Positions 2,187 to 26,691 of a DNA stretch of 64,000 nt are shown piece after piece. The notes beneath the pieces are model-generated. The model was not told the DNA's origin, searched no databases, and saw only the letters and a list, made by a program, of their open reading frames with translations. The stretch comes from Phytohabitans houttuyneae (GTDB lineage Bacteria > Actinomycetota > Actinomycetes > Mycobacteriales > Micromonosporaceae). The DNA is taken from contig NZ_BLPF01000001.1 of assembly GCF_011764425.1 (NCBI RefSeq), forward strand, positions 735,001 through 799,000, given 5' to 3'. The translations under genes and the position numbers were made by a program. Every line of letters begins with the position of its first letter. The stretch's first letter is position 1.

Positions 2187-3461
2187 GTGCAACTGACCGA
2201 CCTGCACGGCTCGTTGAGTGACCCTCTGCTCGACACGATGAACTTTCTGAACGAGGTGACCGCCCGCTTCCCTGACGCGATCTCATTCGCGCCCGGCCGG
2301 CCGTACGACGAGCGGTTCGACCCGGGCGTGGTGGCCGGTTACCTGGACGCCTACGCGAAGTACCTGGAGCGTGACCGCGGCCTGTCGCAGCGGCAGGTCG
2401 GCGGGCTGCTGTTCCAGTATGGACGGACGAAGGGGCAGATCCACGAGCTCGTCGCGGCCACTGTCGCGGCCGACGAGGGCATCGAGGTGTCGCCGGAGTC
2501 CATCGTGGTCACCGTGGGCGCGCAGGAGGGAATGCTGCTGGCGCTGCGGGCGCTGTTCCGCGACTCAGGTGACGTGCTGCTTGTCGCCTCGCCCTGCTAC
2601 GTGGGCATCACCGGCGCCGCGCGGCTGCTCGACATCGCCGTCGAGCCGGTGCCGGAGGGTCCGTCCGGTGTGGACGCCGCGGCGGTGCGCGCGGCGGTGG
2701 CCCGGGTGCGGGCGGGCGGGCGGCGCCCGCGCGCGCTCTACGTGGTGCCCGACTTCGCCAACCCGTCCGGCACGAGCATGCCGGAGAAGGCGCGCCGCGA
2801 GCTGCTCGCGGCGGCGGTCGACGACGACCTGTACGTGCTGGAGGACAACCCGTACGGGCTCTTCTCCCGCACCGGCCGGCGGGTGCCGACGCTCAAGCAC
2901 CTCGACGAGCACCGCCGGGTGGTGTACCTCGGTTCGTTCGCCAAGACGTGCTTCCCCGGGGCCCGGGTGGGTTACGCGATCGCGGACCAGCCGGTGGTGG
3001 CGCCGGACGGGAGCGTCACGCTGCTCGCCGACCAGCTCTCGAAGATCAAGAGCATGACCACGGTGAACACCTCTCCCCTGGCCCAGGCGGCGGTCGGCGG
3101 GATGCTTGTCACGCACGGCTGCCGGCTGCGCTCGCTCAACGAGGAGCGGATCCGGCGCTACCGGGAGCGGCTGGAGGCGCTGCTCGCCGCGCTCGACCGG
3201 CACTTCGGCGGCGTGGCCGGGTTCGGGTGGAACGTGCCGGACGGCGGCTTCTTCCTGGTGCTGACCGTGCCGTTCGTCGCGGACGAGGCGGCGCTGACCC
3301 GTTCGGCCCGCGACCACGGTGTGCTGTGGACGCCGATGAGCTACTTCTACGCCGGTGCCGGCGGCGAGCGGCAGATCCGCCTCTCGTGCAGCTACCTGGA
3401 CGTGGACGAGATCGACGAAGGGGTGCGCAGGCTGCGGAGGTTCGCGCGATCATATAGATGA
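2187..3461 (+). CDS. HpgT-like PLP-dependent aminotransferase
   Basis: Fold-type I aminotransferase of 424 residues. The N-terminus LHGSLSDPLLDTMNFLNEV and the FAPGRP motif resemble the arylglycine transaminases of glycopeptide-type clusters (HpgT), which convert 4-hydroxy- or 3,5-dihydroxyphenylglyoxylate to the arylglycine. The PLP lysine is in GSFAKTCFPGARVGY, and the NPSG and EDNPYG motifs that contact the cofactor are present. I chose GTG 2187 because GAGGT lies 8 nt upstream; an in-frame GTG at 2130 would add 19 residues that do not look conserved. With the Hmo-like gene at 4682 and HmaS at 12749 it completes a hydroxyphenylglycine route. The exact amino donor and acceptor cannot be read from sequence, and a general aromatic or 2-aminoadipate-type aminotransferase is the alternative. 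Confidence 0.8.
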   Translation: MQLTDLHGSLSDPLLDTMNFLNEVTARFPDAISFAPGRPYDERFDPGVVAGYLDAYAKYLERDRGLSQRQVGGLLFQYGRTKGQIHELVAATVAADEGIEVSPESIVVTVGAQEGMLLALRALFRDSGDVLLVASPCYVGITGAARLLDIAVEPVPEGPSGVDAAAVRAAVARVRAGGRRPRALYVVPDFANPSGTSMPEKARRELLAAAVDDDLYVLEDNPYGLFSRTGRRVPTLKHLDEHRRVVYLGSFAKTCFPGARVGYAIADQPVVAPDGSVTLLADQLSKIKSMTTVNTSPLAQAAVGGMLVTHGCRLRSLNEERIRRYRERLEALLAALDRHFGGVAGFGWNVPDGGFFLVLTVPFVADEAALTRSARDHGVLWTPMSYFYAGAGGERQIRLSCSYLDVDEIDEGVRRLRRFARSYR

Positions 3462-3463
3462 GC

Positions 3464-3492
3464 TTGACTACATTGAAACGGTTCGATACGGT
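3464..3492 (+). promoter_or_regulatory. Candidate promoter of the beta-helix gene
   Basis: TTGACT at 3464-3469, a 17-nt spacer and TACGGT at 3487-3492 match the actinobacterial housekeeping-sigma pattern. The start of transcription would lie near 3500, leaving a leader of about 40 nt before the GTG at 3540, which has AAAGGCGGG just upstream. It begins 3 bases after the aminotransferase stop, so the beta-helix gene can be expressed independently. Confidence 0.5.
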
Positions 3493-3539
3493 GCCGGACA
3501 CGTCCGGAAAGCCCTTTCCGCTCCCGAAAGGCGGGCACC

Positions 3540-4694
3540 GTGAAACCACGATGGCTGGTCCTCCTCACCGCGGCCGCGCTGGCCGTCCCCGGCGCCGCCC
3601 ACGCCGCGACCTCGCCCGAAGACGTCCACACGCTCGCCGCCTGCGGTGACGGGTCGTTCAACGCCGAGGCGGTGCAGAGCGGCAGCACCTGGACCTCCCG
3701 CAATGGCAGCCGCACCGTCTACACCGGCTCCGACCTGCGCGCCGCCGTCCAGGCCGCACTCGACAGCCTCACCGCCGGCCGCACCTCGAAACAGTCCGTG
3801 GTGGTGCGCGGCTCCGGCACGATGAGCGCCGGCTCGCGCATCTCCGTGCCGAGCTACACGATCCTCGACGTGTGCGGCGCGATCACCGTCAACGGCTCGG
3901 GCTCCGGCGACCAGGCGCCTATCTACTCGCGCGGCACCCGCGACATCGAGGTCCGGTACCTGCAGGTGCGCGGGGCGCCGCTGTACGGCATCTTCATGCG
4001 CAACGTCAACAACCTCGTGCTCGGCCAGATCGACATGCGCCTGTCCGGCGGGCTCGCGGTCCGGATCGACAACCACGGCGGCGACCGCGCGGTCAAGGTC
4101 CGCAACATCCGGATCGACAACGTGTACGTCGAGGGCGCGACAAACCAGGGCGTCGAGACGTACGGCGTCGACGGGCTGACCGTCGGCACCGTCACCGCCC
4201 GCCGCGTCGGCTACTCGGGGCTGCTGCTCAACGACACCATCAACGCCACCATCGGTACCGTCGACGCGGAGAACACCGCGACCGGCACCGGCTACGCGGC
4301 ATTCCGGATGGCCAACCGCAACGGTCGGATCGGCAGCAGCTACCCGACCAACATCCGGGTCGGCAACGTGATCGCGCGCGGCGGCGGGCGTGGCATCTTC
4401 TGCGTCTCCGAGAGCGGCGGCGCGGTCATCGACCGGATCACGCTCAGCAACAACGGCAACAACTCGATCCTGGTGGAAAACTGCTACAACGTCGCCGTCG
4501 CGGCGCAGTCCGGCACGATCAGCGGCGGCGGCGAGGTGCGCATCGCGGCCCGCACGGAGTTTGGCCCGTCGTCGAACATCACGTTCCAGAACCTGACGGT
4601 GAGCAACACGAACATCCGGTGGAGCCCGTGCACGGGCAGCAACAACGTGGTGCGCAACGTGACCCGGAACAGCTCGAACCTCTACTGGTGCTGA
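3540..4694 (+). CDS. Secreted right-handed parallel beta-helix protein
   Basis: 384 residues with a clear Sec signal peptide: MKPRW, a hydrophobic Leu/Ala stretch, then the cleavage motif AHA at about residue 22. The rest consists of short imperfect repeats rich in Asn, Ile, Val and Gly (for example VNNLVLGQIDM, VRNIRIDNVYV), typical of pectate-lyase-like parallel beta-helices. Two cysteines close to the C-terminus may form a disulfide. No catalytic residues are recognised, so polysaccharide lyase, hydrolase or binding protein are all possible. It sits between two hydroxyphenylglycine-type genes, and its stop codon overlaps the convergent Hmo-like gene by 13 bp. A link to the biosynthetic pathway is not evident. 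Confidence 0.8.
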   Translation: MKPRWLVLLTAAALAVPGAAHAATSPEDVHTLAACGDGSFNAEAVQSGSTWTSRNGSRTVYTGSDLRAAVQAALDSLTAGRTSKQSVVVRGSGTMSAGSRISVPSYTILDVCGAITVNGSGSGDQAPIYSRGTRDIEVRYLQVRGAPLYGIFMRNVNNLVLGQIDMRLSGGLAVRIDNHGGDRAVKVRNIRIDNVYVEGATNQGVETYGVDGLTVGTVTARRVGYSGLLLNDTINATIGTVDAENTATGTGYAAFRMANRNGRIGSSYPTNIRVGNVIARGGGRGIFCVSESGGAVIDRITLSNNGNNSILVENCYNVAVAAQSGTISGGGEVRIAARTEFGPSSNITFQNLTVSNTNIRWSPCTGSNNVVRNVTRNSSNLYWC

Positions 4695-5757: not shown

Positions 5758-5797
5758 ATTGCTCTCCTAGCCGGTCTCTAGCGCGGGCGGACAGGAT

Positions 5798-6442
5798 GTG
5801 GGCGTGGACCGGGTGCCCGTGGACGAGGTGCGCGTGTGGCTGCTGCGCTCACCGCTGCCCGCCGCGGTCCTCGCCCGCCTCGCCGAGCTGCTCGACGACC
5901 GGGAGCGGTCCCGCGCCGGCGCGCTCGACCCGGTCGGGCGGCGCCGCTTCGTCGCGGCGCACGGTGCCGCCCGGGTGCTCGTCGGCGGCTGGGTCGGCAC
6001 CGCGCCCGAGGCGGTGCGCTGGTCGTACGGCCCGCACGGCAAGCCCGAGGTCGACGGCGTCCAGGTCAGCCTCTCCCACTCCGGCGACCTCGCCGCCGTG
6101 GCACTCACGCCGGTGCGGGCGGTGGGCGTCGACGTCCAGCGGCACACGCCCGGCCTCGACACGCGGGCCATGGCGGTCCGGTACTTTCCGCCGCAGGAGG
6201 TCCCCCTCGTCACCGGCCCCGCCGCCTTCGCCACGCTGTGGGCGCGCAAGGAGGCGTGTGTGAAGGCGACCGGCGGCCGGCTCACCAAGGGCCTGGCGCT
6301 GCCCGTCGCCGCCGGGCCGGTCGTCGACGGCGCGTACCACGTCGTGGACGTGCCCGTGCCGGCCGGCTTTGCCGGCGCGGTCGCGCTGTGCGGCCCGGAG
6401 GCGCTCCGCGTCACGACCGCTTGGTGGTCACTCACGGAGTGA
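5798..6442 (+). CDS. 4'-phosphopantetheinyl transferase, Sfp type
   Basis: Transfers 4'-phosphopantetheine from CoA to a serine of carrier proteins. At 214 residues it fits the Sfp/Svp family. Motifs in order: VSLSHSGD, AVGVDVQ (magnesium-binding Asp), and FATLWARKEACVKATGGRL, the family W-x-x-K-E-A-x-x-K-A signature. GTG 5798 is used; it follows the divergent Hmo-like start by 40 bases. Three acyl carrier proteins in the same island are the obvious substrates. The stop overlaps the convergent ABC ATPase gene by 15 bp. Family assignment is certain; dedication to this cluster is inferred from position. Confidence 0.93.
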   Translation: MGVDRVPVDEVRVWLLRSPLPAAVLARLAELLDDRERSRAGALDPVGRRRFVAAHGAARVLVGGWVGTAPEAVRWSYGPHGKPEVDGVQVSLSHSGDLAAVALTPVRAVGVDVQRHTPGLDTRAMAVRYFPPQEVPLVTGPAAFATLWARKEACVKATGGRLTKGLALPVAAGPVVDGAYHVVDVPVPAGFAGAVALCGPEALRVTTAWWSLTE

Positions 6443-7387
6443 GCGGCCGGTCTTGGCCAGGAAGACGTCGTCGAGGCTGGGCCGGTGCAGCTGGATCGAG
6501 TCCAGGTCCAGCTGGGCGCCGTCGAGCGCGCGCATCACCTGCGGGATGGCGGTGGCGCCGTCGTCAACATAGAGGCGCAGCCCGGACGCGTCGGCCTCCA
6601 GCTTGCGCACGTACGCCACGCCGTCGAGCAGCTCGGCCGCCTTGGGCGTCGACCCGTTGAGGCCCACGACGAGCACGTCGCCGGTGATCTCCCGCTTGAG
6701 CTGCTCCGGGGACCCCTCGGTGACGATCTCGCCGTTGTCGATGATGGCGATCCGGTCGCACAGCGCGTCGGCCTCGTCCAGGTAGTGCGTGGTGAGGAAG
6801 ATGGTCATCCCGCCGTCGCGCAGCCGCCGGATCTCGTCCCACATGTGCGCGCGGCTCTGCGGGTCGAGGCCGGTGGTCGGCTCGTCCAGGAACACGAGCC
6901 GCGGCTGGTGGATGATGCCCAGCGCGATGTCGACCCGGCGCCGCTGCCCGCCGGAGTATGTGCGGCAGGGGCGGTCGGCGTACTCGGCCAGCTGGAACGC
7001 CGTGAGCGCGTCCGCGGCCCGCCGCCGCGCCTCGGCCTTGCTGAGGCCGTGCATCCGCGCGTGCAGGACCAGCTCCTCGCGTGCGGTCGAGTCGTCCCAG
7101 GTGCTGCCGCCCTGTGCCACGTAGCCCACCCGCACGCGCACCTGTGCCGGGTCGGCGCGCAGGTCGACGCCGGCGATCGTCGCCTCGCCGCCGTCCGGCT
7201 CGATGAGCGTGGTGAGCATCTGCAGCGTGGTGGTCTTTCCCGCGCCGTTAGGCCCGAGGAAGCCGAAGATCTCGCCCTCTTTGACGTCGAGGTCGACGCC
7301 CCGGACCGCTTCCACCACCGTGGCCTTCCGGCCCCGCCCGGACCGGTAGGACTTGCGCAGGCCCCTGGTCACAATCATGGGCCTCAC
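6428..7387 (-). CDS. ABC transporter ATP-binding protein, DrrA-type exporter
   Basis: 319-residue nucleotide-binding subunit of an ABC-2-type drug exporter. It has Walker A GPNGAGKTT, Q-loop GYVAQGG, signature YSGGQRRR, Walker B LVFLDEPTTGLDP and the H-loop TTHYLDEAD. The C-terminal 100 residues with HRPSLDDVFL are the conserved tail of the DrrA family. No permease gene adjoins it; the likely partner is the permease at 19900-20688, 12.5 kb away in the same island. Together they would export the cluster product or give self-resistance, which is inference. Confidence 0.92.
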   Translation of the reverse strand: MRPMIVTRGLRKSYRSGRGRKATVVEAVRGVDLDVKEGEIFGFLGPNGAGKTTTLQMLTTLIEPDGGEATIAGVDLRADPAQVRVRVGYVAQGGSTWDDSTAREELVLHARMHGLSKAEARRRAADALTAFQLAEYADRPCRTYSGGQRRRVDIALGIIHQPRLVFLDEPTTGLDPQSRAHMWDEIRRLRDGGMTIFLTTHYLDEADALCDRIAIIDNGEIVTEGSPEQLKREITGDVLVVGLNGSTPKAAELLDGVAYVRKLEADASGLRLYVDDGATAIPQVMRALDGAQLDLDSIQLHRPSLDDVFLAKTGRSLRE

Positions 7388-7472: not shown

Positions 7473-7724
7473 ATGGACACTGTGGGCGAGCTCGCCGGCA
7501 TGCTGCGCCATGTCACCGGCGAGGACGAGCGGTGGGCCGCGGCGGTCACGCCGCAGAGCCGCCTCGAAGACGACCTGCGGCTGGAGAGCGTCGAGGTGGC
7601 CGCGCTGGGCGCGGCGATGCACGCGCGGTGGGGCGTGGACCTGCCCGGATACCTCGCCGGCCTCGACCTCGACCAGCTTGTCGACCTGACCGTCGGCGAC
7701 CTGGCCGGGCTGGTGGCGGCATGA
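7473..7724 (+). CDS. Acyl carrier protein
   Basis: 83-residue free-standing carrier protein. The phosphopantetheine attachment serine is Ser39 in DDLRLESVEVAAL, equivalent to the usual DSL motif but with Glu before Ser. Helices II and III of the ACP fold are recognisable around it. The stop overlaps the glycosyltransferase start in an ATGA, so the two are translationally coupled, suggesting that glycosylation and this carrier act in the same branch. Ribosome-binding sequence is poor. Confidence 0.82.
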   Translation: MDTVGELAGMLRHVTGEDERWAAAVTPQSRLEDDLRLESVEVAALGAAMHARWGVDLPGYLAGLDLDQLVDLTVGDLAGLVAA

Positions 7725-8962
7725 GCCGCTTCCTGTTCGTCGCGCCGCCGCTGGCCGGCCACGTGTACGCGGCCGGCGCCGTCGCGGACGCCCTCACCGC
7801 CCGCGGGCACGAGGTCGCCTGGGCCGGCCCGGAGACCGCGCTGCGCCGCATGCTCGGCGACGCCGTCTCCGTTTACTCCACGGGAATGCGCCCCTACCGG
7901 GGGCAGCGCGACCGCGGGTTCCGGGCGGTGCGCTCGCTGTGGGAGGGCTTCGTGCTCCCCTACGCGCGGTTTACGCTGCCGGCCGTGGAGAAGGCGGTCG
8001 CCGCGTTCGCCCCGGACGTGGTGGCGGCCGACCAGCACGCGCTCGCCGGCGCCGTCGCCGCGCACCGGCACGGCGTGCGCTGGGCCAGCCTCGCCCCGCA
8101 GTCGATGGAGCTGACCCGCCCGTTCCGGGCCCTGCCCAAGGTGGAGGAGTGGATCCGGCGCCGGATCGACGGCGCCGGACTGTCCATCGCGGACGGCGCG
8201 GACCCGCGCTTCTCGCCACACCTGGTGCTCGCCTTCACCACGCCCGCCCTGACCGGGCCGCACGACTTCCCTGCCCACTACGCGCTGGTCGGGCCCGCGC
8301 TCGGCGACCGCGCGGCCGCACCGGACTTCCCGTGGGACGCGCTCGACCCGGCCCGCAGCACGGTGCTGGTCACCATGGGCACCCTCGCCGAGGACGTGGC
8401 CCGCGACTTCTACCCGCGGATGGCGGCAGCGCTGCGGGCACACGCCGGCCGCGTGCAGGCGGTCGTCGCCGCACCGCCCGGCACCGTGCCGGACCTGCCG
8501 CCGGGCACCGTCGTCCAGCCGCAGGTGCCCGTGCTCGCGCTCATGCCGCGGCTGTCCGCGGTGGTCTGCCACGCCGGGCTCAACACGGTGTGCGAGGCGC
8601 TGGCGCACGGCGTGCCGCTGGTCGTCGCGCCCATCAAGCACGACCAGCCGGTCACCGCCGCCCAGGTGGTCGCGGCCGGCGCCGGCGTGCGGGTGCGGTT
8701 CGGCCGTTCCGGTGCCGGGGAGCTCGCGGGCGCGCTGGCCGCGGTGCTGGACGAGCCCGGCTACGCGGCGGCGGCCGGGCGGGTGCGGGAGTCGTTCGCC
8801 GCGGCCGGGGTGCCCCGGCCGCGGCGTCACACCTGGAACAGCTTGCCGCCCGCTCCTGACGGGCGGACGCGCGCACGTCGGCCGCCCAGGCACGGGCCGC
8901 CCGCCACGAGGACGCTGGCGGGCGGCCCATTGGTCACGGCGCCGCAGGAAGTCAGCTCTTGA
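7721..8962 (+). CDS. UGT/MGT-type glycosyltransferase, C-terminus frameshifted
   Basis: GT-B fold glycosyltransferase of family GT1 (macrolide/UDP-glycosyl type). The N-terminal domain starts MSRFLFVAPPLAGHV (acceptor side). The C-terminal donor-binding signature is present: MPRLSAVVCHAGLNTVCEAL, then GVPLVVAPIKHDQP. The open frame gives 413 residues, but the last ~34 are an unusual Arg/Pro-rich tail. Restoring one G in the G run at 8806-8811 would switch to a natural end, GAPAAASHLEQLAARS with TGA at 8859, which is how GT1 proteins normally finish. I therefore read the true gene as 7721-8859 with a one-base deletion. As given, its end overlaps the convergent E1 beta gene by 11 bp. Sugar and acceptor are unknown; a phenolic hydroxyl of a hydroxyphenyl unit would be a plausible acceptor. 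Confidence 0.85.
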   Translation: MSRFLFVAPPLAGHVYAAGAVADALTARGHEVAWAGPETALRRMLGDAVSVYSTGMRPYRGQRDRGFRAVRSLWEGFVLPYARFTLPAVEKAVAAFAPDVVAADQHALAGAVAAHRHGVRWASLAPQSMELTRPFRALPKVEEWIRRRIDGAGLSIADGADPRFSPHLVLAFTTPALTGPHDFPAHYALVGPALGDRAAAPDFPWDALDPARSTVLVTMGTLAEDVARDFYPRMAAALRAHAGRVQAVVAAPPGTVPDLPPGTVVQPQVPVLALMPRLSAVVCHAGLNTVCEALAHGVPLVVAPIKHDQPVTAAQVVAAGAGVRVRFGRSGAGELAGALAAVLDEPGYAAAAGRVRESFAAAGVPRPRRHTWNSLPPAPDGRTRARRPPRHGPPATRTLAGGPLVTAPQEVSS

Positions 8963-9920
8963 CGACCGCCTGGATCGCCGCGACCAGCTGCGCCCGGCTC
9001 GGCTGCACCGCGAGGTCCAGCTCGGGCGCGCATCCCACCACCACGGCCGCGTCCGGCCGGGTGACCCGCTTGGGCGGGGCCAACAGCCGCATCTCCTCGG
9101 CCGCGGTGGCAAGCACCTCCGCGCCCACGCCGCAGAACCGGTTTCCGTCGTCGAACACGACCAACCGGCCGGTCCGCTCGACCGACGCGGCCAGGCCGGC
9201 CCAGTCGAACGGGTGCAGCGAGCGCGGATCGAACACTTCCACCGACACCTCGCCGGCCAGCTCCTCGGCGACCGCCATGGCCTCGTGCACCAGGTGGCCG
9301 ACGGCGAGCACGGTCACGTCGGCACCGGAGCGGCAGACCCGCCCCACGCCGAGCGGGATCGGCGCGAGGTCCGCGTAGGACACGTCCTCACGCAGGTTGA
9401 GGGCGGGCATCGGGCAGAACACGACGACCGGGTCGTCGTCGCGGATCGCGGACAGGAACAGCCCGTACGCGTCCGCGGGGGTGGCCGGGATCACCGTCTT
9501 GACGCCGAGGTGGGCGAAGACGCCGTACGGCTGGTCGGAGTGCTGGGCACCCCACCCCGGCCGCCACCCGGTGCCGGGCAGCAGGTACGTCACCGGCACC
9601 TTCACCTGGCCGGCGCTCATCAGCCGGAACTTGTTGGCCTGGTTGGAGATCTGCTCCAGCACGAGCAGCAGCAGGAACGGGATCTGGTACTCCACCACGG
9701 GCCGCTTGCCGCCCATCGCCGCGCCGGTGGCGAAGTTGGTGAAGCCCTGCTCGGACAGGGGTGTTTCGAGCACGCGGTCGGGAAACCTGTCGAGCAGGCC
9801 GGTGGTGACGCTGTTGAGCGCGAACTTGATGTCCTCGCCGAGCACGAAGACGTCGGGGTCGCGCTCCATCTCGTCGGTGAGCGCCCGGTTGAGGGCCTTG
9901 GAGTACGACATCTTAGGCAT
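8952..9920 (-). CDS. 2-oxoacid dehydrogenase E1 component, beta subunit
   Basis: 322 residues, transketolase-like pyrimidine-binding domain followed by the transketolase C-terminal domain. Typical E1-beta segments are VLGEDI near the N-terminus, ETPLSEQGF with the TPP-activating glutamate, QISNQANKFR, and the C-terminal FDPRSLHPFDW. It pairs with E1 alpha 6 bases upstream and ends the eight-gene minus-strand operon that starts at 16764. Such alpha/beta E1 pairs decarboxylate 2-oxo acids and pass the acyl group to a lipoyl E2, but neither E2 nor E3 is present here. In pristinamycin clusters the E1-like PglB/PglC act in phenylglycine supply; a related job or an acyloin-type carboligation are both possible. 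Confidence 0.9.
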   Translation of the reverse strand: MPKMSYSKALNRALTDEMERDPDVFVLGEDIKFALNSVTTGLLDRFPDRVLETPLSEQGFTNFATGAAMGGKRPVVEYQIPFLLLLVLEQISNQANKFRLMSAGQVKVPVTYLLPGTGWRPGWGAQHSDQPYGVFAHLGVKTVIPATPADAYGLFLSAIRDDDPVVVFCPMPALNLREDVSYADLAPIPLGVGRVCRSGADVTVLAVGHLVHEAMAVAEELAGEVSVEVFDPRSLHPFDWAGLAASVERTGRLVVFDDGNRFCGVGAEVLATAAEEMRLLAPPKRVTRPDAAVVVGCAPELDLAVQPSRAQLVAAIQAVVKS

Positions 9921-18242: not shown

Positions 18243-19865
18243 TTATGCGGTCGCGGCGGCGGCGAGGTGACGCTGGCGCATGAGGAACTTGCGCACCTTG
18301 CCGGTCGGGCCTACCACGATCTCGCCGTCGGGCACAGCCACCACCCGGCGCAGGGTCGCGGCCGCCGCCGGGGTGAGCGACTCGCGCACCGCGGCGGTCC
18401 GGTCGACGTCCGGGTCCGCGCCGGCGGCCAGCATCAACAGCACGTCGGTGACCACCCGCCCGTCCTCGCGGCCGGCGACCACTGTGCAGTCGCGCACGTC
18501 AGGGCAGCGCACGAGGATCCGCTCCTCCGACTGTGCCGTGTAGAGCCAGTCGCCGTCGCCGAGATCCACCGCGTCCACGGCCCGGTCGACGTGGTAGTAG
18601 AAGCCGTCCGCGTCCCGGTACATCAGGTCGCCGGTCAGGTAGTAGCCGCCGAACCGGGTGCGGTAGGTGGTCACCGAGTCGTTCCAGTAGCCGGGCGCGA
18701 GCGTGGGCGACTTCAGGCCCACGTGCCCGACCGAGCCGACCGGCACCTCCGCACCGGTCGCGAGGTCCAGGAGGGCGACCTCGGCGAACGGGTACGGCCG
18801 GCCGACGCACCGCCCGTAGCGCTCACTCTCGGACGTGTGTGTGATGTGGAACGCCGAGTGCCCCATCTCGGTCGAGCCGATCCCGTCGATGAACCGCGAG
18901 CCGGGCACGCTGAGCGGACCGTCCGGTGTGTACCGCTGGTGGCTGCCGACCGCGACGAGCCGGCGGATGTGCGCCTCGTGCGCCGAGTCGCCCGTGTTGA
19001 ACCAAACCTTGATCGAGTCCAGATCACGGGCGGCGAGGTCGTGCCGGGCGAGCTCCGCCCACGTGACCGCGAACCCGAACACCCCGGTCGGCCGCCACCG
19101 CTCGATCGCGTCCAGCACCGCCGCCCCGCTGCTGGCGAACTCGCCGCCCTGCGCGGACAGGAACAGCAGCTCGTACCGGTTGCACAGCGCCTGGTTGACG
19201 GTGATGATGCCGGCGGCGTGCGCGGCCGGCATCACCGACATCTCGCGGACCGCGTAACTGGGGCGAGGCTCGAGCAGGCGCACGCGCCGGATCGCGGCGA
19301 ACAGGCTGGCGTGCGAGTGCACGACCGCCGCCGGCACCCGCGTGGTGCCGGAGGAGTGCGTGATGGCGACCGGGTCGTCGGCGTGGTGCCGGTAGTACGG
19401 CGGCGCCTGCGCCGGGTCCCCGGTGCCGGTCTGCTCCGCGTCGATCGTCCGGAAGCCGGACAGCGTCGCGCGGTGCGCCTCGTCCACGATCACGTACTCG
19501 GCCCGCAGCCGCTCGACGAAGCCGGGCGCGACCTCGGCCGGCATGTTGCCGTTCATCAGCGCGGGGATCGCGCCGATGCGCGCGAGCGCGAAAAAGTTCA
19601 GGAACACGTCGGCGGCCGAGGTGACGTAGACGGCCACCGGGTCGCGCGGGCGCACGCCGTGCGCGTACAGCCACGCGGCCCGCGCGGCGGCCCGCTCCTC
19701 CAGTGCGCCGAGGGTCAGCGGCTCGTACGCCGGCCGCCCGTCCACCGGAGTGTCGAAGGTGATGCCCGGCCCGTCGGGGTCGGCGCCGTGCTCGCGCAGC
19801 TTCGGCAGCACGTTGCCGGTGCCCAGCTCCGGGTCGGCGACGAGGGCGGCTCGGATGTTCTTCAT
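18243..19865 (-). CDS. AMP-binding (adenylate-forming) enzyme
   Basis: 540-residue ANL-superfamily ligase, diverged from that at 15334. Motifs: ITHSSGTTRVPAAVV (P-loop, in which the usual lysine is replaced), GIGSTEMGHSAFH (A5), YLTGDLMYRDADGF (A7), a modified hinge HVDRAVDAVDL and a C-terminal GPTGKVRKFLM that keeps the A10 lysine. ATG 19865 is preceded by GGAG at good spacing. It is 34 bases downstream of the ABC permease gene, so the two form an operon. It probably activates an acid or amino acid for one of the three ACPs. The altered P-loop and hinge suggest an unusual substrate or reduced adenylation; thioester-forming ability is not proven. Confidence 0.85.
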   Translation of the reverse strand: MKNIRAALVADPELGTGNVLPKLREHGADPDGPGITFDTPVDGRPAYEPLTLGALEERAAARAAWLYAHGVRPRDPVAVYVTSAADVFLNFFALARIGAIPALMNGNMPAEVAPGFVERLRAEYVIVDEAHRATLSGFRTIDAEQTGTGDPAQAPPYYRHHADDPVAITHSSGTTRVPAAVVHSHASLFAAIRRVRLLEPRPSYAVREMSVMPAAHAAGIITVNQALCNRYELLFLSAQGGEFASSGAAVLDAIERWRPTGVFGFAVTWAELARHDLAARDLDSIKVWFNTGDSAHEAHIRRLVAVGSHQRYTPDGPLSVPGSRFIDGIGSTEMGHSAFHITHTSESERYGRCVGRPYPFAEVALLDLATGAEVPVGSVGHVGLKSPTLAPGYWNDSVTTYRTRFGGYYLTGDLMYRDADGFYYHVDRAVDAVDLGDGDWLYTAQSEERILVRCPDVRDCTVVAGREDGRVVTDVLLMLAAGADPDVDRTAAVRESLTPAAAATLRRVVAVPDGEIVVGPTGKVRKFLMRQRHLAAAATA

Positions 19866-19899
19866 GGTGGTCTCCGTCCCGTTACCGGATCGCACGGAC

Positions 19900-20688
19900 T
19901 CAGCGGATCGTGCGGGTGAAAAGCCTTGTGGACCAGGCGATGGCGACCGTGGCGAGCACGGTGACGCCGACCAGCCCCTGCCAGATGGCGGTGTCGCCGG
20001 TGTTTCCCTCGAAGAGGGATCGCATCCCGTTGGTGACCCAGTAGAACGGGTTCCAGTCGGCGATGGCCTGGATCCACGCGGGCGCCAGCGCCACCGGCAG
20101 CAGCACGCCGGCCAGCAGCGCCACCGGCTGCGCCACGGTGTTCATCACCGGGCCCAGCGCGCCCTCCTTGCGCACGATCAGCGTCACCGCGTACGACACG
20201 GACGTGGTCATCAGCGCGATGACGCACAGCAGCAGGTACGCCAGCAGCAGGTCGAGCACGCCGACGGAGAGCCCGAACGGCACCGCGATGGCGGTGATGA
20301 TGAGCGCCTGCACCAGCAGCGACGCGACGTCGCGCAGGGCCCGCCCGAGCAGCAGCGCGGACCGGCTCACCGGCGTCACCCTGGCCCGCTCGATGATGCC
20401 GGCGCGCAGCTCGGCGAGCAGGCCGAAGCCGGTGAAAAGGCCGCCGTACAGGCACATAACGACGAGCAGGCCGGGCACGTACACCCGGTACGCGTCGCCG
20501 TAGCTGTCGGCGCCCATCGAGGCCAGCGCCGGCTTGAGCATCGGCGCGAAGAGCACGAGGTAGGTGATCGGCTGGGCGAGGCCGAAGATGAGCCACGTGC
20601 GGCTGCGCAGCATCAGGGACATCTGGGCCTGGAAGACCAGCCACGTGTCGCGGGCGAGTTTCACGGGAGGGACGGTATGGCCTGTCAT
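19900..20688 (-). CDS. ABC-2 type exporter permease, DrrB-like
   Basis: 262-residue membrane protein with about six transmembrane helices, for example WLIFGLAQPITYLVLFAPML, LLVVMCLYGGLFTGFGLL and VALLAGVLLPVALAPAW. The block RVTPVSRSALLLGRALRD between helices is the ABC-2 signature region, and the PFYWVTNGMRSLFEG segment precedes the last helix. It lacks its own ATPase gene next door; the DrrA-type ATPase at 6428 is the expected partner. ATG 20688 has no convincing Shine-Dalgarno sequence. It diverges from the condensation-domain operon, sharing a 92-bp regulatory gap. Confidence 0.9.
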   Translation of the reverse strand: MTGHTVPPVKLARDTWLVFQAQMSLMLRSRTWLIFGLAQPITYLVLFAPMLKPALASMGADSYGDAYRVYVPGLLVVMCLYGGLFTGFGLLAELRAGIIERARVTPVSRSALLLGRALRDVASLLVQALIITAIAVPFGLSVGVLDLLLAYLLLCVIALMTTSVSYAVTLIVRKEGALGPVMNTVAQPVALLAGVLLPVALAPAWIQAIADWNPFYWVTNGMRSLFEGNTGDTAIWQGLVGVTVLATVAIAWSTRLFTRTIR

Positions 20689-20717
20689 CGACCGGCAACA
20701 AGCGCCTTGACCGGACG

Positions 20718-20780
20718 TCGAGCCCACCTCCGCTCGTACTTCGACCGGGAGTCAAGCTCCGTCTACTTAGACTCCTGCCG
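20718..20780 (+). promoter_or_regulatory. Leaderless promoter with SARP-like heptamers
   Basis: TAGACT at 20768-20773 is a strong actinobacterial -10 and ends 7 nt before the ATG at 20781, so the transcript is probably leaderless; indeed no ribosome-binding site precedes that ATG. Upstream are TCGACCG (20741) and TCAAGCT (20752), exactly 11 bp apart, the second ending 9 nt before the -10, with TCGAGCC further out at 20718. SARP proteins bind TCGAGC-like heptamers at 11-bp spacing just upstream of the -10, so this fits control by the SARP encoded at 17070. A normal -35 is absent, as usual for SARP targets. Confidence 0.5.
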
Positions 20781-22148: not shown

Positions 22149-23500
22149 AGCGGATCACGGTGCCGTTCAAAGCCGACCCACCCGACGGCGACGGCGTGGA
22201 GGATCTCGCCTGGGGACAGCGCGAGATCTGGACCGCGATGGTGCGGCAGGAGTGGTGGCTGCCGATCGGCTACGCCCGAGCGGTGCCGGCCGGCACCACC
22301 GTCGAGGACCTGGTGGAGGAGGTGCGGTACATGATGGGCCGCTACCCCACCCTCCGCACCACGCTGCGGTACGACCCGGACGGCGTCACCCGGCAGGTCG
22401 TCGCCGGCTCCGGCGAGATCGAGGTCGAGGTGGTCGACGCCGCCGACGACGAGGACCCCGCAGCCGTGGCCGACGCGGCGCGCCAGCGGTACTGGGACGG
22501 CGAGTACGACCTCGTGCACGGCCTTCCGATCTGGATCGCCATCATCCGCCACCGCGGCGTGCCCACCCACCTCGTCACCGTGATGAGCCACCTCGTGCTG
22601 GACGCGTTCGGCGGCCTGGTGATGCTGGACGAGGTCGTCTCCCGGCCCGAGGAGCCCACCGCCATGCCGCCGCGCGAGCAGGTGCGCTGGCAGTCGTCCC
22701 CGGCCGGCCAGCGGCAGAACGCGGCCGCGCTGCGGTACTGGGAGAAGGTGCTCTCCACGGTGCCCGCCCGCCGCTTCCCGCACCGCCACGAGCCCCGCTC
22801 GCCGCGGCACTGGGAGGCCCGGTTCCGCTCCCCCGCCGCGCACCTCGCACTGCGGGTGCTCGCCGCACGCACCAAAGTGGACGCGTCGCCGCTGCTGCTC
22901 GCGACGTTCGCGATCGCGATGGGCCGGCACACCGGCATCAACCCGGTCGCCGTGCAGGTCGTCGTCAACAACCGCTTCCGCCCCGGGCTCGCCCGCTCGA
23001 TGAGCCCGCTCAGCCAGACCGGAATCTGCGCGATCGACCTCGCCGGCCTCACGATCGACGACGCGGTGCGACTCACCGCGCGGCAGGCCATCGCCGCCTA
23101 CAAGCACGCGTACTACAACCCGTCCGATGTGGACGACCTCGTCGCCCGCCTGGCCGCCGAGCGCGGCGAGGAGCTCGACCTCGCCTGCTTCTTCAACGAC
23201 CGCCGCATCGACGTCCGCGACCAGGAGGCCGGGCCGGCACCCACCCCCGAGCAGGTGCGGGCGGCGCTGCCGCACAGCACGTTCGAGTGGAGCCGGCAGC
23301 GGGACACCTCGTTCGAGCGGATGTTCGCCCACATCGAGGACGTGCCGGACATGATGGCCATCACGATCGCCGGCGACACCCACTACATGTCACCGGGCGA
23401 CCTCGAAGCCGTCGTGCGCGGCATGGAGGCGGTCGCGGTCGAGGCGGCCTTCGACCCGGCGGCCACCACGGGGATACCCGCGAGCGGGAGCAGCCGGTGA
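22145..23500 (+). CDS. Stand-alone condensation-domain protein 2
   Basis: 451-residue tandem paralogue of the preceding protein, alike from WGQRE near the N-terminus to RGMEA(L/V)AVEAAFDP at the C-terminus. The active-site motif reads SHLVLDA (His149, Asp153) so the glycine of HxxxDG is Ala, while the catalytic His and the structural Asp remain. VNNRFRPGLARSMSPL matches the same region of the paralogue. The start codon overlaps the previous stop (ATGA) and its stop overlaps the KAS III-like start (GTGA). Two diverged copies imply two different condensations or a catalytic/non-catalytic pair; which is unknown. Confidence 0.84.
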   Translation: MKRITVPFKADPPDGDGVEDLAWGQREIWTAMVRQEWWLPIGYARAVPAGTTVEDLVEEVRYMMGRYPTLRTTLRYDPDGVTRQVVAGSGEIEVEVVDAADDEDPAAVADAARQRYWDGEYDLVHGLPIWIAIIRHRGVPTHLVTVMSHLVLDAFGGLVMLDEVVSRPEEPTAMPPREQVRWQSSPAGQRQNAAALRYWEKVLSTVPARRFPHRHEPRSPRHWEARFRSPAAHLALRVLAARTKVDASPLLLATFAIAMGRHTGINPVAVQVVVNNRFRPGLARSMSPLSQTGICAIDLAGLTIDDAVRLTARQAIAAYKHAYYNPSDVDDLVARLAAERGEELDLACFFNDRRIDVRDQEAGPAPTPEQVRAALPHSTFEWSRQRDTSFERMFAHIEDVPDMMAITIAGDTHYMSPGDLEAVVRGMEAVAVEAAFDPAATTGIPASGSSR

Positions 23501-24423
23501 CCGCGCTGGAGGCGGTGGCCACCTACCTGCCGGAGCACCGCGTGCCGATCGAGGAGCTGGCCGGCGAGCTCGACCTGACCGAGATGCAGGTGCGCCTCTT
23601 CCGCCGCTTCCACCGGCTCTCGGACGTGTGCCGCGCGCCCGGCACGACCCCCCTCGACCTGCTCCTCGCCGCGGCGTCCAAACTGGACGAGCTGCCCGCC
23701 GTGCGGCACCGCGTGCGGTACGTGTTGTGGGCACGCACGTTCCCCGTCGTCGTGCCGTACCCGCTCAACCCGCTGGACACCATGTGCCGGCTGCTCGGGC
23801 TCGACCATGCGGTCGCGTTCACCGTCACCCACCACGCCTGCGCCACCGGGCTGCTCGCGATCGACGTCGCCGGGCGGCTGCTGGCCGGCGCGCCGCCCGA
23901 CTCGCTGGCGCTGGTGGTGGCCGGGGAGAAGGCGTTCACCTACGACGCGCGGGTGGTGCCGGAGACCTCCGTCTTCGGCGAGGGCTCGTCGGCCTGCCTG
24001 ATCCGGCACGACGGCCCCCGCGACCGCCTCCTCGCGTACGCCGCCAGCCAGCGCGGCGACTTCGACGACGAGGTCACCACCGACATCGGCCGCTTCCAGG
24101 ACGACTACCAGGAGTCGCTGATGGCGACGATCCGGACCGCCGTGGAGCGGGCCGGGCTGGCACTGGACGACATCGGCCTGATGCTCCCGCACAACGTGAA
24201 CATCGTCGCCTGGCAGCGGCTCTGCCGCCGGATCGGCTATCCGATCGACCGGGTCCTGCTGGACAACGTGCCGCTCACCGCGCACGTCTTCTGCGCCGAC
24301 GCGTTCGTCAACTACCAGACCGCCCGCGCGCGGGGACTGCTGCGGCCCGGCGACCGGTACCTGGTCGCCGCGGCCGGCGCGGGGCGGGGAGCGACGTTCT
24401 CGGCGATGGTCTTCGAACACTGA
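23497..24423 (+). CDS. KAS III-like (FabH-related) condensing or acyl-transfer enzyme
   Basis: 308-residue thiolase-fold enzyme. The nucleophile is Cys115 in THHACATGLL and the first catalytic His is His232 in MLPHNVNI. Where FabH has Asn in a GNTSA motif, this protein has His263 in LTAHVFCADAF. That replacement is seen in KAS III-type enzymes that transfer acyl groups rather than perform decarboxylative condensation, so acyltransferase activity is plausible. GTG 23497 gives a 4-bp overlap with the previous gene. The ACP gene follows 20 bases downstream, and a second, degenerate thiolase-fold gene comes next, which suggests a heterodimer. Confidence 0.82.
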   Translation: MTALEAVATYLPEHRVPIEELAGELDLTEMQVRLFRRFHRLSDVCRAPGTTPLDLLLAAASKLDELPAVRHRVRYVLWARTFPVVVPYPLNPLDTMCRLLGLDHAVAFTVTHHACATGLLAIDVAGRLLAGAPPDSLALVVAGEKAFTYDARVVPETSVFGEGSSACLIRHDGPRDRLLAYAASQRGDFDDEVTTDIGRFQDDYQESLMATIRTAVERAGLALDDIGLMLPHNVNIVAWQRLCRRIGYPIDRVLLDNVPLTAHVFCADAFVNYQTARARGLLRPGDRYLVAAAGAGRGATFSAMVFEH

Positions 24424-24443
24424 CTGTGATGAGGTGATGCGCC

Positions 24444-24719
24444 ATGGAGCAGCTTGACACGGACCTGCGGCCGCGGGTCGTCGACAGCATCCGCATGCTG
24501 CTGCCGCGGGTACTGCGCAAGGAGATGCCCGAGCCGACCGAGCAGAGCCGGCTGATGGAGGACCTCGGCATGAGCTCCTCCAGCACGCTGGAGCTGATGC
24601 TGGAGCTGGAGGAGGACCTCGCGCTCCAGATCGACGTCGAGGACATCGACCGGGAAGACTTCGCGACGGTGGGCACACTCGCCGACTTCGTCGTGCGGCA
24701 CCTGATTCCGGTGGAGTGA
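24444..24719 (+). CDS. Acyl carrier protein
   Basis: 91-residue carrier protein, strongly acidic. The attachment site is in EDLGMSSSSTLELMLELEEDL; by alignment with DLGLDSL the modified residue is Ser45, with Ser instead of Asp just before it. Helix II is followed by the usual VEDIDREDFATVGTLADFV. It is the third ACP of the island and the one linked to the condensation and KAS III-like genes; its stop is 3 bases before the next ATG. It probably carries the substrate of one or both condensation proteins. Confidence 0.88.
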   Translation: MEQLDTDLRPRVVDSIRMLLPRVLRKEMPEPTEQSRLMEDLGMSSSSTLELMLELEEDLALQIDVEDIDREDFATVGTLADFVVRHLIPVE

Positions 24720-24722
24720 ACG

Positions 24723-25469
24723 ATGCTGTGGTTGGCGCGGGCCGCCCGCCGGGTGTTCGACGAGCCCGCGGCGCGGACCGCGCACCCCGAGCACGCCCCG
24801 CACTTCGCCAACTACCTGGCCGATCTCCTGGAGCCGTACGGCGTGTCACCGCACCCACCGGCCGGCGGCCAGTCGTACGGCGAGATGGGCGCCGCCCTCA
24901 TCGCCGACCTGGTGCGGCCGGACGAGCCGGTCGACCTGCTGGTGCTCGCCTTCGCGGTGCCGGACGTGCGACCCGGCCGGGCCACCGCCACCTACCTGAG
25001 CCACGTGTGCCCCGGGCAGCCGCTCGCCTTCGCCGTCTGCGACCAGGGCGTCGCGGCGGGCTTCACGGCGCTGCGGATCGCCCAGTCGTACCCGGAGCAC
25101 CGGCGCTCGCTCGTCATCGTCGTCGAGCAGGCCGCCCTGCACTACGACCCGCCCGCTCCGGCGCCGCTGCCGGCCCGCCACGCCGGGGTCGCGCTGCTGT
25201 GCGGCGACTCAGGCGTCGCGCGGATCTCCCCCGTGACGATCGGCCGCGGCGAGCCGGTGGAGTCCACCGTGGACGCCGTGCCCGGCCAGCCGTACACGGG
25301 CGTCTGGTGGGCACTCGCCGGCGAGCTCGCCGACCGCACGCCGCGGCGGGTGGTGGTGGCCGCGCGGGACCCGGTGCTCGGCTACGCGTGCTCATCCACT
25401 GTGGACTTCGAGGGTCTGGAACCGGACGGGGGTGGCGCGGGTGTCCGAGTGGGACTGGGGGCGGCCTGA
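24723..25469 (+). CDS. Short thiolase-fold protein lacking the catalytic cysteine
   Basis: 248 residues related to the ketosynthase/thiolase fold. The region LAFAVCDQGVAAGFTALRIA aligns with the nucleophile helix of the KAS III-like neighbour (FTVTHHACATGLLAIDVA), and at the catalytic position there is Val110 instead of Cys. The protein is about 60-80 residues shorter than a full KAS and I see no PHxxN motif. It is therefore unlikely to condense anything itself. It may be a structural partner of the KAS III-like enzyme, like a chain-length factor. Its 3' end overlaps the next gene by 38 bp. Assignment to the fold is by local similarity only. Confidence 0.65.
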   Translation: MLWLARAARRVFDEPAARTAHPEHAPHFANYLADLLEPYGVSPHPPAGGQSYGEMGAALIADLVRPDEPVDLLVLAFAVPDVRPGRATATYLSHVCPGQPLAFAVCDQGVAAGFTALRIAQSYPEHRRSLVIVVEQAALHYDPPAPAPLPARHAGVALLCGDSGVARISPVTIGRGEPVESTVDAVPGQPYTGVWWALAGELADRTPRRVVVAARDPVLGYACSSTVDFEGLEPDGGGAGVRVGLGAA

Positions 25470-26199
25470 GGAGCTGAGCGAGCGGATGGACGCGTTCCTC
25501 GTGGACGGCGCGGCCTGCGACAAGCTGGAGGAGGTCGCGCGGCCGCCCTACGACCGCACCACGCTCGGCGACCTGGGCGTGACCGGCGTCGAGTTCGCCG
25601 CGTGGAAGAGCCACCACCCCGCGGCCCTGGCCTCAGACGTGGTGCCGCTGCGCTCCCCGGACGCCGCGGCGGTGCCCGGCCGGGTCTACCGGGTGGACGG
25701 CGAGGCGCTCTTCGCCGCGCTGGACATCTGCGAGCCGCTCCCCTTCGCCGACGGTTCGGTCGACTGGGTGTACGCCGAGCACCTCATCGAGCACGTCTCG
25801 CTGACCGCCGGCACGGCCTGGCTCACCGAGGTGCGGCGGATCCTCGCGCCCGGCGGCGTGCTCCGGCTCACCACCCCCGACCTGGCGACCTATGTGGACG
25901 GTTACCGCAGCGGCGACACGTTCTTCTCCCGCCACCGCGGCCGCATGCGCGCCGCCGGCCTGGGACCGCCGATGCCGGCACGGCGGGCCTTCATGTTCAA
26001 CCAGCTCTTCTACCTGTACGGCCACCGGTGGCTGTACGACTACGAGGAGCTGGCGTACGCGCTGGTCTCCGCCGGCTTCCCCGACACCGCGATCGAGCGC
26101 CGGGCCTTCCGGGACGGCGCACGGCCGGACGTCGCCGAACTCGACCGTGTGTTGCGCAATGACGAGAGTATCTACGTGGAGGCCACCGTTCCGGTGTAG
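25432..26199 (+). CDS. SAM-dependent methyltransferase-like protein
   Basis: 255 residues. The core DICEPLPFADGSVDWVYAEHLIEHV followed by WLTEVRRILAPGGVLRLTTPDL (motifs II-III and post-III) is that of class I type 11/12 methyltransferases acting on sugars or small molecules. The expected glycine-rich SAM motif (GxGxG) before it is not recognisable; the corresponding segment is VEFAAWKSHHPAAL. The C-terminal half has FNQLFYLYGHRWLYDYEEL, common in this subfamily. GTG 25432 is used; GTG 25441 is possible. Because motif I is missing, SAM binding is uncertain. It is in the condensation operon and could methylate the product. Confidence 0.7.
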   Translation: MARVSEWDWGRPEELSERMDAFLVDGAACDKLEEVARPPYDRTTLGDLGVTGVEFAAWKSHHPAALASDVVPLRSPDAAAVPGRVYRVDGEALFAALDICEPLPFADGSVDWVYAEHLIEHVSLTAGTAWLTEVRRILAPGGVLRLTTPDLATYVDGYRSGDTFFSRHRGRMRAAGLGPPMPARRAFMFNQLFYLYGHRWLYDYEELAYALVSAGFPDTAIERRAFRDGARPDVAELDRVLRNDESIYVEATVPV

Positions 26200-26208
26200 A
26201 ACTGGATC

Positions 26209-26691
26209 ATGAGCTATCCACCGACCCTGTACACGGGCGAGAGCGGCGAGGTCACCGCCACCTACCGGCCCGACGGCCACGAGCCCGAGCTCAGGTACCC
26301 GAAGACCGGCGGCGCCGTCCACTACCTGGCCACGCAGGCCTCGACCGCGGGCCAGTTCGGCATGTACCGCTGGGAGATGGGCCCGACGCCGAGCGGTCCC
26401 GACCCGCACTTCCACCGCACGATCTCCGAGTCCTTCTACATCCTCACCGGAACGATCCGCATCTACGACGGCACCAAGTGGATCGACTGCACTCCGGGCG
26501 ACTTCGTGCACGTGCCAGCGGGGGGCGTGCACGGATTCCGCAACGAGTCCGGCGAGCCGGCGTCGATGCTGCTGCACTTCGCGCCGGGAGCGCCCCGCGA
26601 GGGCTACTTCGAGGGCCTGCTCGAGCTGGCCGGCAAGTCCGAGGAGGAGAAGGCCGCCTTCTACCTGGAGCACGACAACCACTGGCTCTGA
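26209..26691 (+). CDS. Cupin-domain protein
   Basis: 160-residue single-domain cupin. Motif 1 is GPDPHFHRTISESFYILTG (two His and one Glu metal ligands) and motif 2 is PGDFVHVPAGGVHGF (last His), so a mononuclear metal site is complete. Small cupins of this size act as dioxygenases, isomerases, epimerases or cyclases in natural-product clusters; no specific reaction can be named. It starts 9 bases after the methyltransferase stop and is the last gene of the plus-strand operon. The following gene converges on it with no gap. Confidence 0.85.
   Translation: MSYPPTLYTGESGEVTATYRPDGHEPELRYPKTGGAVHYLATQASTAGQFGMYRWEMGPTPSGPDPHFHRTISESFYILTGTIRIYDGTKWIDCTPGDFVHVPAGGVHGFRNESGEPASMLLHFAPGAPREGYFEGLLELAGKSEEEKAAFYLEHDNHWL

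Follow-up and report, generated by a model that had tools for sequence, protein, structure and literature searches.

A probable discrete-enzyme pathway with hydroxymandelate-type precursor genes in Phytohabitans houttuyneae and its relatives in other genera

Introduction

Units of the 4-hydroxyphenylglycine (Hpg) type are known mainly from the products of modular nonribosomal peptide synthetases (NRPSs), such as the glycopeptides. Assembly lines composed of discrete enzymes are also known, among them those of congocidine, pacidamycin, streptothricin and andrimid, and we know of no Hpg-type supply, E1 alpha/beta pair or KAS III-like pair in these systems. The pairing of a KAS III (β-ketoacyl-acyl carrier protein synthase III) protein with a partner that lacks the nucleophile is represented by the PqsC/PqsB heterodimer. 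The subject here is a gene cluster, or island, of the actinomycete Phytohabitans houttuyneae, in which genes for a 4-hydroxymandelate synthase (HmaS), an oxidase resembling the hydroxymandelate oxidase Hmo and an aminotransferase (AT) are accompanied by free-standing carrier proteins (ACP1 to ACP3), adenylate-forming ligases (Lig1, Lig2), ketosynthases (KAS II and the KAS III-like KS3), condensation proteins (C1, C2) and the alpha and beta components (E1) of a 2-oxo acid dehydrogenase. The island spans 1144-26691 of a window of 64,000 nucleotides, the whole stretch of DNA that was analysed, which represents positions 735001-799000 of contig 1 of a host genome of 11.34 Mb in 5 contigs.

The island is best read as encoding a discrete-enzyme thiotemplate pathway that would build in a unit derived from a 4-hydroxyphenyl-C2 precursor, and whose product would be glycosylated and exported; the probability of this reading is put at roughly three in four. 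It is carried by the enzyme families and their catalytic residues, the type of the HmaS, the recurrent linkage of the genes and the absence of a modular synthase, all as read from the sequence. Genes were called by codon usage, and the island proteins were scanned with Pfam and NCBIfam. These calls and scans reproduced the gene set that a preliminary description had named for 2187-26691. That list holds overall, save that a hydrolase at 1144-2078 had been overlooked and that 24723-25469 is re-read below as a protein designated X1. The largest encoded protein called is of 550 amino acids (aa), and no modular NRPS or polyketide synthase (PKS) was found among the island genes by either approach, in contrast to the multimodular NRPSs of the Hpg clusters for vancomycin, CDA and nocardicin. 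The central claim of that description, that HmaS/Hmo/HpgT-type genes stand with free-standing carriers, ligases, ketosynthases and condensation proteins and without a modular synthase, is borne out, and the linkage recurs across genera.

The predicted hydroxymandelate synthase and its partners

From its sequence, the protein encoded at 12749-13813 (minus strand) is assigned to the hydroxymandelate type and not to the 4-hydroxyphenylpyruvate dioxygenases (HPPDs). Its best match in the PDB is 2r5v (280 bits), deposited as PCZA361.1, which we take to be the HmaS of A. orientalis. This entry is followed by 7yvv (275 bits; deposited as HPPD), 3zgj (253 bits) and the HPPD 1t47 (223 bits). The NCBIfam model for HPPD also passes on the island protein (333 bits, cut-off 277), and thus the residues have to decide between the two activities. 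The motif N-I-(K/R/P)-A-L-Y was present in 30 of 30 aligned HmaS proteins of related clusters (33 were available, of which three shorter than 300 aa were omitted) and appears in the window as FGSNNIKALY, whereas the HPPD of the host reads N-F-K-A-L-F. The cluster motif fits the tunnel residues Ser352, Ile355, Leu358 and Tyr359 of Streptomyces coelicolor Hms, as given in PMC3720870. The host HPPD is encoded on another contig and scores 423.5 bits with the HPPD model, against 332.7 bits for the island HmaS; it is the sole other full-length match to that model, and the genome holds no second HmaS. With 2r5v as the best match, an HPPD of its own elsewhere in the genome and residues of the HmaS type, identity as an HPPD was rejected.

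In a tree of HmaS proteins, 37 sequences were separated from eight others by a branch of 94/99, and 36 of these 37 came from loci of discrete genes. The larger side includes the HmaS of G889, a genome whose 20 kb show only HmaS and Hmo, while on the side of eight just three of the loci show an open reading frame (ORF) of more than 2,300 aa in 20 kb; G859 and G180b, which have no called HmaS, stand outside the tree. By this sequence comparison, the HmaS proteins of discrete clusters appear as a lineage of their own.

The Hmo-like, flavin mononucleotide (FMN)-dependent oxidase is encoded from 5757 to about 4691 (minus strand), with a match to FMN_dh of 310 bits in the first frame and its C-terminal part in a second. 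The first frame holds QLY, TPR and NHGGR, corresponding to Tyr, Arg and His-Arg motifs, and these agree with the Hmo site residues given in PMC6677016, as matched by eye. The AT (2187-3461, plus strand) is of class I/II (Aminotran_1_2, 96 bits) and has the pyridoxal phosphate (PLP) lysine motif SFAKT. Its best NCBIfam matches are MocR-type models, with none of the 25 matches listed above cut-off, and it is 55-57% identical to the aminotransferase adjoining HmaS at three loci (G792, G878, G880), each of which carries an ORF of 2,338-3,198 aa with weak ligase or condensation matches. By context, the AT is considered a putative HpgT equivalent. Between AT and hmo lies a gene for a secreted-looking beta-helix protein (3540-4694), with a homologue at the equivalent place in P. 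maris; it is not assigned to the pathway.

Recurrence in other genera

Apart from gaps, gene order is identical in all five other genomes of the genus that were examined; the cluster of G077 ends at a contig edge, and that of G031 is without AT in view. Outside the genus, 15 to 20 island genes recur per cluster in four clusters of about 60 kb from three further genera, belonging to Actinokineospora diospyrosa, Saccharothrix luteola, Kitasatospora cheerisanensis and Kitasatospora sp. SolWspMP-SS2h. All four contain HmaS, Hmo, an alpha/beta hydrolase (AbH), E1 alpha/beta, the oxygenase PhyH, KAS II, Lig1, Lig2, ACP2, KS3, X1 and a glycosyltransferase (GT), and three of the four contain AT. Because order is kept within the genus and so many genes recur beyond it, the association of the island genes is far from chance.

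Relatives of KS3 (E <=1e-25) were present in 69 of the 300 family genomes and, counting the host genome itself, in 10 of 394 from a class sample. A set of 85 loci was compared, comprising the window, six genomes picked by similarity to C1 and 78 named loci picked by similarity to KS3, so that co-occurrence counts within it are conditional on this selection. The named loci derive from the best 80 of 184 KS3 relatives found in the named genomes, L089 and L090, which duplicate G091 and G103, being excluded; L096 probably duplicates G077, and some strains contribute two loci. Named loci stop 10 kb from KS3 or at the contig end, which makes the presence counts lower bounds, and each gene family across the set takes its name from a single representative.

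HmaS is in view in 33 of the 85 loci and lies 10.6-16.8 kb from KS3 in ten more, giving 43 of 85; for distances above 10 kb, contig identity was taken from contig numbers, with which the regions read at L150 and L153 agree. The 33 loci with HmaS in view include Lig2 (32), KAS II (32), PhyH (27), a condensation gene (27), E1 beta (26), AT (19) and Hmo (13), and 21 of the 85 combine HmaS with a condensation gene and the two E1 genes. The named genera number nine, namely Phytohabitans, Dactylosporangium, Actinokineospora, Saccharothrix, Actinophytocola, Catenulispora, Kitasatospora, Streptomyces and Actinacidiphila. Recurrence on this scale points to an uncharacterised family of metabolites.

Some relatives have additional features. 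The condensation proteins of Kitasatospora match a longer type of 691 aa. In some clusters, a relative of the class II aminoacyl-tRNA synthetase-like amino acid:[acyl-carrier-protein] ligases (277.6 bits, cut-off 357) adjoins the gene for the phosphopantetheinyl transferase (PPTase), as at L099:12769-13656 and in the Kitasatospora clusters (L250-L255); no tblastn match to this ligase was obtained in the window.

NRPS regions elsewhere in the genome

The host genome has 80 condensation matches, many of them in open frames of more than 1,000 aa, and the island HmaS is its only one. A modular NRPS might on these grounds receive Hpg in trans from HmaS, Hmo and AT, the island product being a separate one, and the preliminary description had named a modular synthase elsewhere that shares the island's regulation as a finding that would speak against its proposal. 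Adenylation (A) domains for Hpg have codes of the HLGLL or DAYNLGLL type. Ten NRPS regions gave 61 A-domain motif hits, of which 58 were aligned (three were dropped, with a stop or an end within 200 residues), and none of the 58 codes is Hpg-like when set against these, which makes a consumer in these regions unlikely. The one that comes closest on inspection, DMWNLGLIN at C3:31665 (DMENLGLIN at first reading), is a code known for N-hydroxyornithine. A large NRPS region at 2146000-2230500 of contig 1 (L224-L228), with 23 motif hits, likewise yielded 0 of 23 Hpg-like codes. An unusual Hpg code or an overlooked A domain is possible.

The surroundings of HmaS also argue against supply in trans, as it keeps company with discrete genes in the nine named genera and is placed in the separate lineage described above. 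Only ten ORFs of more than 900 aa occur in the 85 loci; four were scanned and are of TPR, SARP, carboxylase and LuxR types, a further four fall into two of the families thus identified, and the remaining two are at L112 and L116. Export of Hpg to an NRPS of the same genome was accordingly rejected on the codes read, and the whole proposal is considered very improbable.

Assembly and tailoring enzymes

A candidate serine is retained in each of the three carrier proteins. ACP1 (7473-7724, plus strand) is without a Pfam match and has a weak ACP match of 21 bits, with its Ser in LES, and its family is present in 22 of the 85 loci. ACP2 (15078-15344, minus strand; PP-binding 22.6 bits, cut-off 20.8; DSL) accompanies Lig1 in 25 of 27 Lig1 loci, and ACP3 (24444-24719, plus strand) matches PP-binding at 30.8 bits, above cut-off, and has the serine motif. 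The PPTase is encoded at 5798-6442 (plus strand; Pfam ACPS 32.6 bits, cut-off 25). Lig1 (15334-16764, minus strand; AMP-binding and AMP-binding_C) has a C-terminal subdomain, while Lig2 (18243-19895, minus strand) is of AvaA6/Tri17-like architecture (NF058622 AvaA6, 455 bits, cut-off 975) and matches 8ztz (376 bits) and 8tf7 (Tri17; 318 bits) in the PDB. Both ligases retain the motifs of the ANL superfamily of adenylating enzymes.

The KAS II (13813-15081, minus strand) is FabF-like (PRK07314 431 bits, cut-off 387) and keeps Cys-His-His. KS3 (23497-24423, plus strand; ACP_syn_III_C 47.6 bits) matches FabH chains in the PDB. Its Cys115 and His263 are conserved in all 86 sequences and its His232 in 85 of them, FabH having Asn at the position of His263. 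X1 (24723-25469, plus strand) has no Pfam or NCBIfam match and falls weakly into the KAS III register. It is found in 70 of the 85 loci; a Cys occupies the nucleophile column in 1 of these 70, and PHNxN occurs in none. By analogy, X1 may be a non-catalytic, KAS III-like partner of KS3.

The two condensation proteins are free-standing. C1 (20781-22148, plus strand; PF00668 59 bits, cut-off 30.6) has HLVSDG, in line with HxxxDG and its catalytic second His, and C2 (22145-23500, plus strand; PF00668 73 bits) has HLVLDA. The His and Asp of this motif are invariant in 12 aligned lone condensation proteins. Relatives of C1 were also found in 23 records of a plasmid collection, at 25-35% identity among the 20 matches listed.

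E1 beta (8952-9920, minus strand) is composed of Transket_pyr and Transketolase_C and scores 219 bits with the model for pyruvate dehydrogenase (PDH) E1 beta, below its cut-off. E1 alpha (9927-11018, minus strand; E1_dh 196 bits) has the thiamine diphosphate motif GDG..NN, its nearest PDB match being a PDH E1 alpha. No lipoyl or E2/E3 family was matched among the island proteins scanned with Pfam.

The remaining genes are of tailoring, release, export and regulatory types. The GT (7721-8962, plus strand) is MGT/EryCIII-like by the Pfam and NCBIfam scans, and is present in 57 of the 85 loci. A DUF3050 protein of the haem-oxygenase fold (11029-11817, minus strand; PF11251 316 bits; PDB 9vwb 193 bits) is followed by the PhyH-type Fe(II)/2-oxoglutarate oxygenase (11830-12729, minus strand; PF05721 85 bits); DUF3050 is also the family of MgoB of the mangotoxin operon, according to PMC3298696. 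An S-adenosylmethionine-dependent methyltransferase (25432-26199, plus strand; Methyltransf_11 33 bits, above cut-off) and a cupin (26209-26691, plus strand; Cupin_2 56 bits) stand at the right end. The ATP-binding cassette exporter consists of a DrrA-type ATPase (6428-7387, minus strand; TIGR01188 drrA 340.8 bits, cut-off 312) and a DrrB-type membrane protein (19900-20727, minus strand; ABC2_membrane 90 bits), and a regulator of the Streptomyces antibiotic regulatory protein (SARP) type is encoded at 17070-18014 (minus strand; BTAD 148 bits). The AbH (1144-2078, minus strand) matches Abhydrolase_3 at 162 bits, above cut-off, and NCBIfam LipP1 at 215 bits, below the cut-off of 350. As homologues occur in 28 of the 85 loci, it is counted with the cluster; its P. 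maris homologue has a GDSAG motif, and it is possibly a release or acyl-transfer enzyme. To the left of the island, 1-1089 resembles a tyrosyl-tRNA synthetase by eye; to the right are a methylpurine-DNA glycosylase, by Pfam scan, and look-alikes of argininosuccinate lyase and synthase, judged by eye.

Proposed pathway

For substrates, carrier partners, order of steps and product, the following scheme is the one that we infer from these families. HmaS would convert housekeeping 4-hydroxyphenylpyruvate to 4-hydroxymandelate, which Hmo would oxidise to 4-hydroxyphenylglyoxylate. This intermediate would then either be transaminated to Hpg by AT or be decarboxylated to an acyl group by E1 alpha/beta. 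Carriers primed by the PPTase would be loaded with acids by Lig1 and Lig2, KAS II and the KS3-X1 pair would form C-C bonds or transfer acyl groups, and C1 and C2 would join carrier-bound pieces through amide or ester bonds. AbH could release the product, with tailoring by PhyH, DUF3050, the cupin protein, the methyltransferase and the GT, export by DrrAB and regulation by the SARP. Within this scheme, the balance tips slightly towards Hpg as the unit used.

The branch through E1 can be taken further, in that E1 alpha/beta without E2/E3 might decarboxylate 4-hydroxyphenylglyoxylate onto a carrier as a 4-hydroxybenzoyl starter for KAS II, with AT acting elsewhere. E1 accompanies HmaS in 26 of 33 loci, and both occur with Hmo in all four extended clusters, AT in three. 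No lipoyl or E2/E3 partner was matched, as noted above, and Micromonospora genomes carry HmaS, KAS II, PhyH, DUF3050 and E1 as a single run, which in one of them (G155) lies beside a type II PKS. Against this, at G124, L105, L131 and L138 E1 neighbours KS3 with no HmaS in the part in view, so that its substrate there is probably another 2-oxo acid, and Hmo is joined by AT in 24 of 26 loci within the 85. An aroyl starter is thus a possibility to be held tentatively. More speculative is a taxonomically wide, hitherto undescribed class of carrier pathways in which aroyl loading by an E2-less E1 (with or without Hpg as a second unit), KAS II together with a KAS III heterodimer containing a dead partner, and joining by lone condensation proteins are combined. 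Were it true, the HmaS and KS3 halves of the island would be cassettes exchangeable between type II PKS pathways and those of meroterpenoid and amino-acyl type. The cluster raises the question of the role of an E2-less E1 within an assembly line, and most of its enzymes, having a single activity, lend themselves to individual assay.

One pathway or two

Several observations weigh against a single discrete-enzyme pathway using an Hpg-type unit. C2 retains His and Asp and lacks the Gly, having HxxxDA instead of HxxxDG, and P. flavus has a single condensation gene at the place of C1 and C2. Relatives are not all strictly single-domain, as a condensation-carrier didomain protein lies beside Lig2 and AT in the Saccharothrix cluster (L101:4306-5979). 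The best PDB match of X1 is an unrelated chain (E 0.06), with the KAS III 4ryb second (E 0.1), and a profile comparison of X1 with KS3 gave the same register at a probability of 1.6%, so that support for its fold is weak. The Actinokineospora cluster keeps HmaS, Hmo and E1 with no AT match over about 60 kb, and hence a unit other than Hpg may be used. In this assembly, hmo and AbH have broken reading frames, and therefore the strain, or just its sequence, may be defective. Finally, other genomes hold the two halves of the island, that with HmaS and that with KS3, separately.

With regard to the broken frames, hmo switches frame near 4921, its P. maris and P. flavus homologues being single-frame, and AbH is frameshifted near 1636, its two frames aligning separately to the single-frame protein of P. 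maris. Two frameshifts inside 3.3 kb would suit a cluster that has been switched off and is decaying in this strain. In the comparison with P. maris and P. flavus, however, the remaining genes covered are single-frame, and relatives have scattered splits in other genes, a pattern expected from sequencing errors. Decay is accordingly regarded as unlikely.

The separate occurrence of the halves bears on a statement in the preliminary description, which held that finding these genes apart in homologous islands would count against it. This was observed in part, with an HmaS part lacking KS3 and a KS3 part lacking HmaS in view. A part made up of HmaS, KAS II, Lig1, Lig2 and PhyH occurs in the Micromonospora-type genomes G155, G180 and G192, and also in G158 and the order member G774; no KS3 or island-type condensation gene was found in the 20-40 kb fetched around these Micromonospora-type HmaS parts. 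In G155, the run adjoins a classical type II PKS with cyclase, acetyl-CoA carboxylase and ketosynthase/chain-length factor (KS/CLF) genes. It extends to DUF3050 and E1 in G155 (L206-L207), G180 (L219) and G192 (L222).

KS3 has other company as well. Nine Micromonospora loci (L091-L094, L097, L100, L103, L124, L126) have KS3, Lig2, GT and the exporter with meroterpenoid-type genes, which, as named from L091, are UbiA, a polyprenyl synthase, a flavin adenine dinucleotide (FAD) monooxygenase and a squalene-hopene-cyclase-like protein. The closest HmaS to L091 is 148 kb distant. At seven loci (L130, L137, L140, L159, L161, L165, L167), the KS3-ACP3-X1 triad stands, as named from L130, with a PreATP-grasp protein, a PLP decarboxylase of the Orn/Arg type and several acyl-CoA dehydrogenase-like proteins; the ATP-grasp/PLP decarboxylase pair is presumably similar to BtrJ/BtrK of butirosin.

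Since the halves occur separately, they may be viewed as two joinable modules, and the HmaS run, like the KS3-ACP3-X1 triad, has the look of a cassette that can be reused. The island could then represent two adjacent pathways, one of an HmaS-KAS II-Lig-E1 module and the other of a KS3-condensation-GT module, as either half is seen without the other in stretches of other genomes. Within the genus, however, the halves are interleaved and their order is constant, and they occur together in 43 of the 85 loci in varied arrangements. Two independent pathways are thus considered distinctly improbable, and a single discrete-enzyme pathway assembled from joinable parts is preferred.

Comparison with known systems

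No description of this class of cluster was found in the open-licence literature, judged from titles and the starts of abstracts among the matches listed, with subscription papers and MIBiG lying outside the search. The Hpg supply of glycopeptide type is the nearest relative of the precursor genes, as seen in the HmaS type, the Hmo motifs and the identity of AT to aminotransferases adjoining HmaS. The island differs from such clusters in that it has ligases, carriers, KAS proteins and E1 in place of an NRPS, and in that its HmaS belongs to the separate lineage.

The cispentacin/coronafacate machinery, AmcB-AmcF-AmcG-AmcH in PMC10698177, shares the logic of a discrete ACP, ligase and KS. Some relatives of the island, though not the window, have AmcF-like and AmcG-like genes in the HmaS run (e.g. 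177.8 and 31.8 bits, cut-offs 325 and 80). In the window, tblastn gave no match to the AmcG-like gene, and the AmcF-like query matched only the FabF-like KAS II, which is thus without an AmcG-like partner; the island further differs by the addition of HmaS, E1 and the condensation proteins. Cyclopentane machinery of the cispentacin type in the window was rejected on the missing AmcG-like match.

The ava and cma systems for avenalumate and p-coumarate, as covered in PMC10777205, resemble the island in the loading of an aryl acid onto a discrete ACP by a ligase and in an ANL enzyme similar to Lig2. According to PMC11705231, AvaA6 carries out ATP-dependent diazotisation and Tri17 forms N-N bonds, and as both are among the best NCBIfam and PDB relatives of Lig2, a diazotase role and a route through a diazo intermediate may be asked of Lig2. 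Its score lies far below the AvaA6 cut-off (455 against 975 bits). The island protein scans gave no match to a nitrite-forming pair, 3-amino-4-hydroxybenzoate (3,4-AHBA) synthase, CLF or ketoreductase (KR), unlike the ava/cma gene table of PMC10777205; these scans covered the island and not the rest of the genome. On the score and the unmatched nitrite genes, the diazotase reading, which is most unlikely, was set aside and Lig2 is treated as an acid ligase.

PqsC/PqsB is the counterpart of the proposed KS3/X1 pair, in which the partner again lacks the nucleophile; KS3 differs in its Cys-His-His residues and in being accompanied by a carrier protein, and the fold of X1 is weakly hinted at. Dissociated NRPSs share with the island their free-standing carriers and condensation enzymes, and the C1/C2 profile matches 4znm (40.7 bits), which we take to be SgcC5. 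The preliminary description had regarded a fully trans-acting assembly of an arylglycine or arylglyoxylate product as new. The lack of a modular synthase in the island agrees with this in part; the product may contain arylglycine, and discrete assembly lines are known for congocidine and the other systems named at the outset. These comparisons place the proposed coupling of Hpg-type supply to discrete enzymes as a variation on known discrete assembly lines, and one that is widely distributed.

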